This document shows, piece after piece, positions 23,255-27,514 of a DNA stretch of 48,648 nucleotides. The stretch covers positions 1 through 48,648 of the forward strand of contig JAMOTK010000019.1 of the NCBI GenBank assembly GCA_027062365.1. Direction: 5' to 3'. Source of the stretch: Sulfurovum sp. (GTDB lineage Bacteria; Campylobacterota; Campylobacteria; Campylobacterales; Sulfurovaceae). Made by a program: the position numbers and the translations under genes. Every line of letters starts with the position of its first letter. Position 1 is the stretch's first letter. Under the pieces are notes generated by a model that ran no database searches, was not told the origin of the DNA, and was given only the letters and a program-made list of their open reading frames with translations.

Positions 23255-24001
23255 ATGAATAAAAAAGAAGACCATATCGCACTCTTTATAGACTGTGACA
23301 ATATTTCACACCGTTCCATAGGTGGCATTATCAATGAATTGAGTAAATTTGGTATTGTCAATATTCGCCAAGCCTACGGTAATTGGACAAAAGACAATCT
23401 CAAAAACTGGGAAGATAAACTCTTAGAATACGCTATCAAGCCCATACAACAATTTGACTACTCCAAAAACAAAAATGCAACCGATATACTCATGACCATT
23501 GATGCCATTGATTTACTACATACCAAAGATATAGATGCCTTTGCTTTTGCTACATCTGATTCTGATTTTACCCCTGTAGTGATGCGTGTCCAAGCTGAGG
23601 GTATCAAAGTATTTGGCTTTGGAGAAAAGAAGACACCTAAACCTTTTATGGCTGCTTGTTCGCAGTTTATATTTACAGAAAAACTTCTAGGAACAGACAG
23701 ACAAGACAAAAAAAATCCTAAAGAAGAAAGAGAAAAACCTATAAAACAATCAGGACAAGAGATGCGTCAAGATACATGGCTTGTCAATCTTCTACACACC
23801 TCCCTAGAACAAACCATGGACGAAGATGGCTGGGCAAACCTAGCAAGTATAGGTCAATATATAAATAATTCCACCTCTTTTTCTCCTATCAATTTTGGCT
23901 ATAAAAAACTATCTAACCTCATAGACGAGATAGACTTATTTGATATTTATCTAGATAAAGAGAGTAAAATGATGAGCATTAGAGAAAAAGAAGCGTATTA
24001 A
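23255..24001 (+). CDS. NYN domain protein with C-terminal OST-HTH/LOTUS domain
   Basis: A 248-residue protein of the LabA/DUF88 type. The N-terminal NYN (PIN-like) nuclease domain shows acidic metal-binding residues in FIDCDNIS, NATDILMTIDAIDLL and ATSDSDFTPVV. After a charged linker (about 148-170) the C-terminal 75 residues look like an OST-HTH (LOTUS) RNA-binding fold (WANLASIGQYINN and YKKLSNLIDEI). A regulatory RNase is the best guess. The AAGGA site precedes the ATG. It converges with the methyltransferase gene with a 4-base overlap. Confidence 0.85.
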   Translation: MNKKEDHIALFIDCDNISHRSIGGIINELSKFGIVNIRQAYGNWTKDNLKNWEDKLLEYAIKPIQQFDYSKNKNATDILMTIDAIDLLHTKDIDAFAFATSDSDFTPVVMRVQAEGIKVFGFGEKKTPKPFMAACSQFIFTEKLLGTDRQDKKNPKEEREKPIKQSGQEMRQDTWLVNLLHTSLEQTMDEDGWANLASIGQYINNSTSFSPINFGYKKLSNLIDEIDLFDIYLDKESKMMSIREKEAY

Positions 24002-24993
24002 AGATGTAAATCTTCATAAATCTTCTTCGCCAAATGATACGCCAAAGTCACAGGCACAGCATTCCCCACCATCTTGTACCCTGCTGTAAGATTTTTATAA
24101 TAAAAAATATGCTCATCAGGAAACGATTGTACCCTAGCACACTCTCTAATACTCAATCGCCGATATAAATCCTCTTTACTAGGCACAAATCGTCTTTTGT
24201 CTTTCTCTACCAATTCCATCTTGGGAGCTTGTGGGTGCAAAGGTGCGTGTCGCCCTCCTGCTTGGATAGTAAAAGAATGCTCATCCCATGCCCTCACACG
24301 ATTACGAGACATATACATAGACGAAAACCCACCTGTCATATATTCATGATTTTCTAGCCTACACGCCGACCCATTGGTATAAGTCTTCTCCTTAGCAGGA
24401 AGAGCCGAGTCTTTCAAATCCCAAATAATATCTTTCAAAAAGTATTTTTTGTCTAAAGGCTTAGGAAATTCAAATTTTATCCCCAAATCCTTTCTAAAGC
24501 CCACAAAAAATATCCTCTTTCTATCTTGTGCCACCCCATAATCACGAGCATTCAACAGCTCAAAAGACAAATCATACCCACTCTCAATAAAATGATTTTT
24601 GATATTTCCCAAAGCCTCAGTATGACGAGAAGCCATCATACCCGATACATTCTCAGCCAAAAAGAACAAAGGCTTTTTATCACGAAGCACCCGAATAAAT
24701 TCAAAAAACAACTGCCCCCTATCATCATCAATCCCCCGAGACTTCCCTGCCTCACTCCAACTCTGACAAGGAGGCCCACCAATCAACCCCAAAGTATCAG
24801 GAATATCCTCCGATGGAATTTTTGTAATACTCCGTCTATCTAAAACCGTCTTAGAAAAATTCTTCTCAAAAGTTTCCCAAATTTCTTTATCATACTCATT
24901 TGCCCAAATAGTATTAAACCCTGCTTGTTTGAAGCCTAGGTCTAAGCCACCTGCTCCTGAGAAAAGGGAGATTATATGAGTATTATTATTCAA
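23998..24993 (-). CDS. DNA (cytosine-5) methyltransferase, HaeIII/NgoPII type (predicted GGCC)
   Basis: A complete 331-residue C5 methyltransferase: motif I FSGAGGLDLG (11-20), IV GGPPCQSWS with catalytic C76, VI AENVSG (113-118), VIII QDRKR (156-160), IX RECARVQ and X GNAVPV (310-315). The target-recognition region with NHEY and MSRNRVRAW, and HPQAP, follows M.HaeIII closely as I recall it, hence predicted specificity GGCC; this is inference. The start is TTG 24993, overlapping the stop of the upstream nuclease gene (TTGA), and no other start exists because a stop codon precedes it in frame. Confidence 0.92.
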   Translation of the reverse strand: MNNNTHIISLFSGAGGLDLGFKQAGFNTIWANEYDKEIWETFEKNFSKTVLDRRSITKIPSEDIPDTLGLIGGPPCQSWSEAGKSRGIDDDRGQLFFEFIRVLRDKKPLFFLAENVSGMMASRHTEALGNIKNHFIESGYDLSFELLNARDYGVAQDRKRIFFVGFRKDLGIKFEFPKPLDKKYFLKDIIWDLKDSALPAKEKTYTNGSACRLENHEYMTGGFSSMYMSRNRVRAWDEHSFTIQAGGRHAPLHPQAPKMELVEKDKRRFVPSKEDLYRRLSIRECARVQSFPDEHIFYYKNLTAGYKMVGNAVPVTLAYHLAKKIYEDLHL

Positions 24994-26219
24994 TTATTAA
25001 TATCTTCAAATGAAGCTGAATATACATTTTGAAATTTTTCTCTTACCTCTTTAAATTTTTCTATAACACTTGAAATAAAGTCATCTTGATTAAATTCAAA
25101 TGTATCTAACTTCAAGTTTTTATCAAAAGTATCCCATTCTAATGATATATTTGTTTTAGCCTTAATGCCTTTTAGTTTATCAAATTTATTTCGGATATCT
25201 TCTAAATTAGTATTATCATCATTTTTTGCAAATCTCCAATAAATAGCTTTCATATTATTAGACTTAAATTGAATATTAAATTCATACTTCCATCCATCCT
25301 GAAATATTCTTATTCGTCCATCATATTTTTTTAATGGATTTCCAGCTCCTTTTATTATCCAATTTTCATCTTTTAAACTAGTATCTTCATTAAATTTATC
25401 TAAAATTTTTGATGCTAATTCATCTGTAAAAAAATCTTTATTGTTTTCAACTCTTATTTTTTCTGCTTCAGCATAAGCTTTACTAATTTCCTTTGCTAAT
25501 TCAAAATCTTCTTTATTTTTAAGTAATTCTTCCCCTAAACTCATTATCTTTCCTTTATAATTATAATTTAACATATTTACAACATCAATATATTGTCTAA
25601 ATACTTCATTTAAATTAGTAATATTTTGTATTTCATATTGAGATTTTTTTAACCAGTTTAATATCTCATCTTTATAATGAATTGATTTAAATAAAGCTAT
25701 TTTTATATCATTTCTTTTTATAAAATCATCATTAATGATCATGTCTCCTAAAGATTTTTCTGATGGTTTATCTTTATTCAATGAAAGATAAATTACTAAT
25801 ATATTTTTATAATCCAAGCTTTCATCTTTGCCCATAATTAATTCAACATAGCGTTTAATCTGTTTTGGTTGGTCACCAGCATAAACTTTATTTTCTATAA
25901 TTATATGATTAGAACCATCGGTTATATATAAGTCAATATTTTTATATTCTCTAAAAACAGAACACTTTTCAATATTAATATTAAAATCTTTTACATTTAA
26001 TGTTTCAACAAATTTTTCTAAAAATAATGTATCTTGGAAATGTTCTCCTTTTGGATTAATTAACGAATATATCATTTTAGAATGTAAATTAACTTCATCA
26101 TGCTTTTTTAAAACAGTTGTCAATAGATTATAATTATTTAGCCCTCTTTGTTTTTGTAAATTTTGCTTTTTAATTAGTTCTTTGAATTTATCAAAAAGTA
26201 TTTCATATTTTGTATCCAT
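24990..26219 (-). CDS. PD-(D/E)XK nuclease superfamily protein (PDDEXK_4 type)
   Basis: A 409-residue protein. The N-terminal third matches the PDDEXK_4 family: the helical NLHSKMIYSLINPKGEHFQ region, E100, D105 in NIDLYITD, E118-N-K120 in IIIENKVYAGDQPKQIKRY, and Q126 nearby. The rest is helical with a beta-rich C-terminal part (WKYEFNIQF, IYWRFAK) of unknown role. ATG 26219 is chosen because AAGGAG (26230-26235) precedes it; a TTG at 26246 in the same frame overlaps that site and is unlikely. It is coupled to the methyltransferase by a 4-base overlap, suggesting a restriction or accessory nuclease. Base composition is more AT-rich than the flanks. Confidence 0.8.
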   Translation of the reverse strand: MDTKYEILFDKFKELIKKQNLQKQRGLNNYNLLTTVLKKHDEVNLHSKMIYSLINPKGEHFQDTLFLEKFVETLNVKDFNINIEKCSVFREYKNIDLYITDGSNHIIIENKVYAGDQPKQIKRYVELIMGKDESLDYKNILVIYLSLNKDKPSEKSLGDMIINDDFIKRNDIKIALFKSIHYKDEILNWLKKSQYEIQNITNLNEVFRQYIDVVNMLNYNYKGKIMSLGEELLKNKEDFELAKEISKAYAEAEKIRVENNKDFFTDELASKILDKFNEDTSLKDENWIIKGAGNPLKKYDGRIRIFQDGWKYEFNIQFKSNNMKAIYWRFAKNDDNTNLEDIRNKFDKLKGIKAKTNISLEWDTFDKNLKLDTFEFNQDDFISSVIEKFKEVREKFQNVYSASFEDINN

Positions 26220-26235
26220 TTTAAATATTCTCCTT

Positions 26236-26313
26236 TTATATTCCAAACACCAAAATCACCCCATCAATCAAATCCACAGGATTATTAGGGTTTTTAATCT
26301 CAACACTATTCAT
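26236..26313 (-). pseudogene. C-terminal tail remnant A of an NgoPII-type restriction endonuclease
   Basis: A 25-codon frame reading EIKNPNNPVDLIDGV and ending FGI-stop. It resembles remnant B at 26840 (SPNNPVVLIDGV... FGE-stop), and KIKNPNNP near the C-terminus is what I recall for R.NgoPII. The frame begins within the last codons of the toxin gene, so it is a leftover, not a gene. Differences between the two copies conserve the peptide better than random drift would. Confidence 0.55.
26242..26300. repeat. Direct repeat copy A flanking the RelE-type module
   Basis: About 59 bases that match 26846-26904 without gaps at roughly 49 of 59 positions by eye, sharing CCCCATCAATCAA and CCACAGGATTATTAGG. 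It lies on the downstream side of the toxin-antitoxin pair. Confidence 0.75.
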
Positions 26314-26551
26314 ACACTTTACTTCTATGCTTGACTCTATAAACAATGATAATATCGTCTCTTAACTCAAATAAAACTCTATAATTTCCTACTCTCAATC
26401 TATAAGGTGGCTCAAAATTAGTCAGTCTTTTAATATTTGCTACTTGTGGAAAATCTTGTAAATTTTCTATTTTATTCAAAATCTTAATTGCTTCTTTTTT
26501 ATCTATTTTAGAGAGGTCTTTGATTGCTTTATCATCAATTTTAACTTTCAT
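26306..26551 (-). CDS. RelE/ParE superfamily mRNA interferase toxin
   Basis: An 81-residue RelE-fold toxin. The pattern is typical: N-terminal helical KAIKDLSKIDKKEAIKILNKI, then KRLTNFEPPYRLRVGNYRVLFEL with the central Arg residues, then IIIVYRVKHRSKVYE with the catalytic-site K-H-R-S-K-x-Y cluster. RelE-type toxins cut mRNA in the ribosome. It follows the antitoxin gene with no gap. Its downstream end runs into the C-terminal tail remnant of a restriction endonuclease. Confidence 0.87.
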   Translation of the reverse strand: MKVKIDDKAIKDLSKIDKKEAIKILNKIENLQDFPQVANIKRLTNFEPPYRLRVGNYRVLFELRDDIIIVYRVKHRSKVYE

Positions 26552-26779
26552 TTATAGCCCTAATTTGGCTCTAGCTTCATCAATGCTATATTGTCTGTTA
26601 TTCTCTTTTTTAGTTGCTTCAATAGTATAAAAATCTTCTGTATCTTTTTTAACTTCTTCAACATCTAAAGTATCTTTTTCAAAGCGTATTTGTTCCACAA
26701 TACCACCTTTTAGATTATTAATAATTGTTAAAAATGTATTTAGTTTATCATCTTGAATGTCTAAATGTATTGTTTGCAC
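26552..26779 (-). CDS. Antitoxin of the RelE-type pair
   Basis: A 75-residue partner directly upstream of the toxin, starting at GTG 26779 with AAAGGA 6-8 bases before. The C-terminus (IDEARAKLGL) is a charged helix suited to wrapping a RelE toxin. The first 35 residues share about half their positions with the antitoxin at 38416, which faces a PIN toxin (MQTI, DD/DN, LN, LT, NLK, GIV). No named DNA-binding fold is obvious from sequence. Confidence 0.82.
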   Translation of the reverse strand: MQTIHLDIQDDKLNTFLTIINNLKGGIVEQIRFEKDTLDVEEVKKDTEDFYTIEATKKENNRQYSIDEARAKLGL

Positions 26780-26839
26780 TCTTTATCCTTTTATTGAAAA
26801 TATACTCTATTATATCTATTTAAACTAGCAAATAAAATA

Positions 26840-27251
26840 TCACTCTCCAAATCCCAACAAAACCCCATCAATCAATACCACAGGATTATTAGGACTCTTA
26901 ATCTTCACTTCTCTATCATGCTTAGGCATAGAGTTTGTCTTTGGGATAGGAGCTGTTTAGGGCTATGGCTGAATTTTTGCCCTCTAGCTTTTTTATCTCT
27001 ATGGCATCGCCATTTTTAAGCATCAAATCAGGTGGGTTATTTTTGTTTCCTTGGTAGGAGAATATCTCTTCAAATTTTCTTAATTTATGCTCAATATTAG
27101 CATCAGAAAAGATATTGGCAAAGGCACTTTGAATATAGTGTTCTAATCCCTCACCCATATTGTTGGCTCTGTTGTTGCCACTTTTGACGGTTTTTATATG
27201 ATGGCGATAGTTGTTTGAGATGTTTATGAATGCTTTTAGTGTATTTGACAT
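26840..27251 (-). pseudogene. NgoPII-type type II restriction endonuclease, internally deleted and frameshifted
   Basis: The first 109 codons (27251-26922) carry the start of an NgoPII-family enzyme: NNRANNMGEGLEHYIQSAF, then FSYQGNKNNPPDLMLKNGD followed by AIEIKK (the PD...D-x-ExK-like active site, D and E-x-K present), and ALNSSYPKDKLY. Full members are about 275 residues. Here it stops at TAA 26922-26924, and a different frame continues MPKHDREVKIKSPNNPVVLIDGV to TGA at 26840, resembling the end of R.NgoPII as I recall it. About 150 middle residues are missing, so no active dimeric enzyme is expected. R.NgoPII cuts GGCC, matching the neighbouring methyltransferase. Confidence 0.8.
26846..26904. 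repeat. Direct repeat copy B flanking the RelE-type module
   Basis: Partner of 26242-26300 (spacing 604 bases). It lies upstream of the antitoxin and encodes the tail of the decayed NgoPII-type endonuclease. Confidence 0.75.
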
Positions 27252-27273: not shown

Positions 27274-27514
27274 TAAAATATCTTAACTTTCGCACCTCAT
27301 AATATATCTGAAAGTACCGTATAATAAGGGTTTCCATAGCATTTCTCATATATCTTGACATATCATTTTTGCATTTAGAAGCCCCGTATATAGGGGCTTG
27401 TTAAATCTAGGAACAGCGTGTCAAGGGATATGAGAATTATCTAACAAAGCCCGTAGGTACAGATACTATACAGAACTATTCATTATTTTAAGGTGCGAAA
27501 GTTAAGTAAAATAT
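27274..27514. mobile_element. MITE-like element, 225 bp, with 8-bp target duplication
   Basis: The element spans 27282-27506. Its ends are perfect 16-bp inverted repeats CTTAACTTTCGCACCT (27282-27297) and AGGTGCGAAAGTTAAG (27491-27506). Both are directly bordered by the same 8 bases TAAAATAT (27274-27281 and 27507-27514), a target-site duplication. No ORF is inside. The interior is itself folded: TTCTCATATATCTTGACA (27343-27360) pairs with 27419-27436 with two mismatches, and AAGCCCC/GGGGCTT (27379-27385/27393-27399) make the central hairpin. It lies 30 bases before the restriction remnant. No parent transposase is in the window. An 8-bp duplication occurs in several IS families, so I assign none. 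Confidence 0.85.

Follow-up and report, generated by a model that had tools for sequence, protein, structure and literature searches.

A palindromic MITE of Sulfurovum with the ends of an ISPepr1-type insertion sequence and an interior that resembles two inverted left ends

Insertion sequences (ISs) of the ISPepr1 subgroup of the IS4 family have ends of the form YT-AA-YTT---A, a size of 1500-1600 bp and direct repeats of 7-8 bp (De Palmenaer et al. 2008, PMC2266710), and they prefer AT-rich targets (PMC2266710). Bacterial MITEs, for example those of Coxiella burnetii (PMC5896051), are thought to be derived from an IS whose transposase has been lost. In the present study, we analyzed a MITE in a window of 48,648 nucleotides (the whole stretch of DNA under analysis), which is contig JAMOTK010000019.1 of the Sulfurovum sp. 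assembly GCA_027062365.1. We found that it is very probably a MITE of an IS of the IS4 family, ISPepr1 subgroup, which consists of two inverted left ends and has been moved in trans.

The initial annotation had described a 225-bp non-coding element with perfect 16-bp inverted ends and an 8-bp duplication, TAAAATAT, and the coordinates bear this out (Table 1). It had also described a palindromic interior with an 18-base arm pair and a central 7-bp stem, and both are seen in the predicted fold: the inner arms form 18 pairs, with G-U pairs among them, and the stem of 7 bp is made by 27379-27385 and 27393-27399. No perfect 16-bp inverted repeat other than the ends of the MITE is found in the window at spans of up to 600 bp. 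No ORF of at least 80 aa lies inside the element, and a transposase gene is absent from it. The fold of the whole MITE has a predicted energy of -80.7 kcal/mol (z = -8.9), which none of 200 shuffles equals, and that of the opposite strand has -78.7 kcal/mol (z = -8.6); each strand gives a single long imperfect hairpin.

Table 1. Positions in the window of the parts of the MITE and of its broken neighbour gene
Feature	Position	Strand	Remark
Target-site duplication, left copy, TAAAATAT	27274..27281	.	Identical to right copy
MITE, 225 bp, non-coding	27282..27506	.	Second copy in genome
Left terminal inverted repeat, CTTAACTTTCGCACCT	27282..27297	+	Identical to ISPepr1-type IS ends
Right terminal inverted repeat, AGGTGCGAAAGTTAAG	27491..27506	-	Perfect partner of left repeat
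Target-site duplication, right copy, TAAAATAT	27507..27514	.	Exact 8-bp direct repeat
Inner palindrome arm	27343..27361	+	Pairs with 27418-27436
Inner palindrome arm	27418..27436	-	Pairs with 27343-27361
Subterminal box, CATATATCTTGACA	27347..27360	+	TTGACA at position 74 from left end
Subterminal box, CATATCCCTTGACA	27419..27432	-	TTGACA at position 83 from right end
Central hairpin, AAGCCCC-GTATATA-GGGGCTT	27379..27399	.	Reverse complement matches leader hairpin of IS left end
NgoPII-type restriction gene, broken, neighbour outside MITE	26922..27251	-	Match to RE_NgoPII

The source genome (2.3 Mb in 77 contigs) contains a second copy of the MITE at positions 1042-1266 of another contig, C38. 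The two copies are identical at 224 of the 225 positions, and the single difference is at 27411, where the window copy has G and the C38 copy has A. The second copy lies at an unrelated intergenic site within a 7-bp direct repeat of its own, TACTTAT. The target duplication differs by insertion; the length of 8 bp given by the initial annotation is right for the window copy (TAAAATAT) and is not a fixed length of the element. Each copy is flanked by divergently transcribed genes, which are the remnant of an NgoPII-type restriction gene and a GDSL lipase gene for the window copy, and a leftward ORF and an ORF of 255 aa for the C38 copy. From the look of its sequence, we take the leftward ORF to be riboflavin synthase. 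These results show that the MITE has moved. The element had been called MITE-like and recently mobile, with the proviso that the same bases at the same place in all relatives, together with a lack of other copies and of an empty site, would speak against recent mobility; a near-identical copy with a different duplication is present, and an autonomous IS with the same ends was found (see below).

An old, fixed and immobile chromosomal palindrome that resembles a transposon by chance has next to no probability as an explanation. It is refuted by the C38 copy, since the two near-identical copies occupy unrelated sites and have separate duplications; furthermore, the ends of the MITE are identical to those of an IS. 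The one point in its favour is that an orthologous empty site could not be demonstrated. A search with the joined flanks in 78 congeners gave no empty site that has both of them, because the order of the flanking genes is not shared; one side only aligns, namely the ribE side for the C38 copy and the restriction-gene side for the window copy. None of nine ribE loci inspected in congeners has such ends.

The search for the element in other genomes covered 399 genomes from the order and 175 genomes from the family. Among the 399 genomes, exact pairs of the terminal repeats at the spacing of the MITE occur in the source genome only. A half copy, 76% identical and cut by a contig end, was found in a Sulfurovum bin (G352; L144 is identical with L075), and another genome (G099) has two relics of the MITE sequence. 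Sequence identity (L012 and L087) shows that a further genome of the same genus as the window (G044) is Sulfurovum sp. SZUA-1390. The plasmid collection contains no match to the MITE. The description of the element as novel is right in that this MITE has no plasmid match and has, elsewhere in the searched Campylobacterota, only the half copy and the two relics, but elements of its kind are known, and so is the parent family. Thus, it is a new representative of a known kind.

The initial annotation suggested a search of the genome and its relatives for the 16-bp ends and for a transposase gene with the same ends. This search found pieces of an IS in the source genome and full ISs in relatives. 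The exact 16-bp end occurs at C76:65415, where it is the right end of an IS and a DDE transposase reads out to it over 129 aa, and at C61:16006, where it belongs to a short IS remnant. At C12:56630, a left end with one mismatch is followed by the N-terminus of the transposase. The two large pieces (C76 and C12) stop at contig ends, which is expected for a multi-copy IS in a draft assembly, and no complete copy is present in the assembly of the source genome, just end pieces at contig ends. In relatives, full copies with the same kind of ends are about 1.55 kb long (1485-1577 bp), with 1536-1577 bp in the closest clade and 1485-1505 bp in a sister clade, and in many of them a reading frame of about 460 codons is open. 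Their target duplications include TAAGTTA, TAGGATTA and TAAAATA, and another is 10 bp long; around most of the full ISs, a repeat of at least 5 bp is absent. The transposase scores 302 bits against the NCBIfam model NF049925 (IS4 family; cut-off, 250). At the place of the Y-(2)-R-(3)-E-(6)-K signature of the IS4 family, the transposases have YKRRWDIEQGYKELR and variants, with R for the final K in all copies. The end sequence CTTAACTTTCGCA agrees with YT-AA-YTT---A at each conserved position. By its sequence, the parent is an IS4-family IS of Campylobacterota that probably belongs to the ISPepr1 subgroup.

Several other observations were made on these ISs. Two genomes of the same genus (G019 and G021) contain 54 and 41 copies of a 14-bp end, mostly near contig ends, which represent large IS expansions. 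Those in G019 that lie about 130-180 bp from contig ends were considered as palindromes that break the assembly, but their sequences are ordinary IS ends that have been cut off. At two places in one Sulfurospirillum MAG (L035 and L037, 1704-3391), IS copies carry a tandem pair of left ends at a distance of 111 bp; it seems that one IS copy inserted into the left end of a second one. Two viral contigs from IMG/VR (L185 and L186) have one exact 16-bp end each.

A simple internal deletion of an IS would retain one left and one right end. To compare the interior of the MITE with both, we made one profile from the left ends (22) and one from the right ends (17) of these ISs, and the arms of the MITE were scored against both without the terminal repeat. 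The arms match the left-end profile with 7.4 bits (reached by none of 500 dinucleotide shuffles) and 4.2 bits (reached by 1 of 500), which are modest bit scores, and neither of them matches the right-end profile. When the middles of the arms were scored without the hairpin, 0 and 2 of 1000 shuffles were as good. In both arms, the match to the IS left end is in register and includes the spaced TTGACA box and the hairpin of the transposase leader. The central hairpin alone matches the leader hairpin in the orientation of the right arm only (0 of 1000); the sequence is ACAAAGCCCTATATACGGGGCTTTTA in the IS and ACAAGCCCCTATATACGGGGCTTCTA in the MITE, the latter read from the right arm. Thus, the MITE looks like two IS left ends placed head to head. 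An ordinary MITE formed by internal deletion of the IS, with a left and a right end kept and a palindrome that is due to chance or is secondary, is improbable. MITEs are usually ascribed to deletion, and relatives do contain true deletion derivatives of the IS, of 410, 607, 893, 936 and 1106 bp. However, beyond the 16-bp repeat it is the left-end profile that the arms follow in register, and never the right-end profile, and the left-end character of both arms argues that the element is not a derivative of this type and largely refutes such an origin.

For a MITE with two left ends, the simplest account of the sequence would be that the left end was duplicated in inverted orientation around the leader hairpin. 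The two inverted left ends would be joined at this hairpin, and a duplication templated there may produce exactly such a palindrome; drift after the duplication would then include the 10-base gap between the two arms. Two separate left ends may possibly have been joined instead. The arm-to-arm score is 36, and the best scores of the arms against the 22 IS left ends are 34.5 and 30; the lead of 36 over 34.5 is small. Such a duplication would suggest that transposase-leader hairpins can seed palindromic MITEs. As for mobility, a transposase of the ISPepr1 type most likely acted in trans: it would recognise the 16-bp ends shared by the MITE and move the element into AT-rich targets of 7-8 bp, which would be duplicated on insertion.

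The initial annotation noted that the folding of the interior goes beyond what a simple deletion derivative would require, and two inverted left ends agree with this; no signals were found for its further proposal of a structured RNA or regulation. A search of Rfam gave no match to the MITE at E up to 1 (one match at chance level lies outside it), promoter-like sites in the element are at the level of shuffled sequences, and terminator-like sites are absent. Selection of the interior as a structured RNA or as a regulatory element for the neighbours (a terminator, an RNase III target or an insulator) might be read from the very stable fold (z = -8.9) and from the position of both copies between divergently transcribed genes. 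However, the strong fold may be a by-product of the left-end duplication, and the inverted repeat of the left end accounts for it. The preference for AT-rich targets likewise places insertions between divergent genes, and relatives keep the interior just as a half copy and relics. With Rfam blank and no excess of promoter or terminator signals, such selection is very improbable, even more so than an origin by deletion, and the reading as a structured RNA is not supported. The folded element is tied to its parent IS, and there is no need to pursue it as a new RNA.

The MITE was also said to lie 30 bases upstream of a broken restriction gene, and this distance is correct, as counted from the start codon (ATG at 27251, minus strand). 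The gene matches positions 1-107 of the 262 of RE_NgoPII, followed by a stop and a frame shift. Judged by position, loss of the promoter or another effect of the MITE on this neighbour is possible but unsupported; because the gene is broken within its own reading frame, its loss does not need the insertion. The gene is part of a defence patch (23998-27251) with a C5 cytosine methylase, a PDDEXK_4 nuclease (PADLOC candidate PDC-S26), a ParE-like toxin and the NgoPII remnant. At 23255-24001, the window encodes an OST-HTH/LOTUS domain fused to an NYN ribonuclease-like domain.

A TTGACA box inside both ends of the IS is new to us. Of the 22 left ends, 17 have TTGACA with one mismatch at most at position 84 or 85, and 14 of the 17 right ends have it at position 84; the background elsewhere in the IS ends is about 0.2 sequences per position. 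Examples with the box at both ends are L025 (1847-3391) and L187 (298-1860). Three ISs on complete Aliarcobacter plasmids, two of them near-identical, were outside these counts; two have the box at 85 (left) and 84 (right), and the third has it at 84 on the right only. The box is absent from a distant Alicyclobacillus relative. The MITE has the box at 74 and 83, the half copy of G352 has it at 83 and a relic of G099 at 74, and in all of these it stands within CAT-N5-TTGACA. The positions 74 and 84 are one helical turn apart, which, with four arms, is only a hint. We considered a -35 promoter box as the main role of TTGACA and rejected it. The box keeps a constant spacing from the IS end (84-85), whereas its spacing from the leader hairpin and from TATAAT varies, and the box of the right end falls in coding sequence; thus, a role at the ends is likelier, although coding constraint may add to the conservation at the right end. 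The box could possibly be a second recognition site that is bound. Tentatively, and with slightly less than even confidence, we propose that the ISPepr1-type ISs of Campylobacterota have a two-part end that consists of the 16-bp repeat and a TTGACA box about 8 helical turns inside, to which the transposase or a protein of the host would bind, and that the MITE, with its boxes at about 7 and about 8 turns, is a natural minimal substrate for which two left ends suffice. Such a substrate would belong to a little-studied subgroup of the IS4 family, and it would point to a second site in the ends.

A second family of foldback MITEs was found in the draft genome of a relative (G448), in which several copies are present (L142 1130-1514 and L171-L175); the element is 385 bp long, with shorter derivatives, and has the target duplication TTTATAT. 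It resembles the window MITE in that it has the same IS ends, is non-coding, folds strongly and has TTGACA at position 83 of one end. However, its interior is unlike that of the window MITE, and therefore such foldback elements probably arose more than once. Compared with the ISPepr1 subgroup (PMC2266710), the ends, the duplications of 7-8 bp and the AT-rich targets agree, and the full partners of the MITE, at 1485-1577 bp, encode a DDE transposase of the IS4 family (NF049925); the MITE differs in that it is geneless and appears to have two left ends in place of a left and a right one. The MITEs of bacteria such as Coxiella burnetii (PMC5896051) are also short and non-coding with inverted ends, whereas the long palindrome of the window MITE would be derived from one end of the parent and not from an internal deletion.
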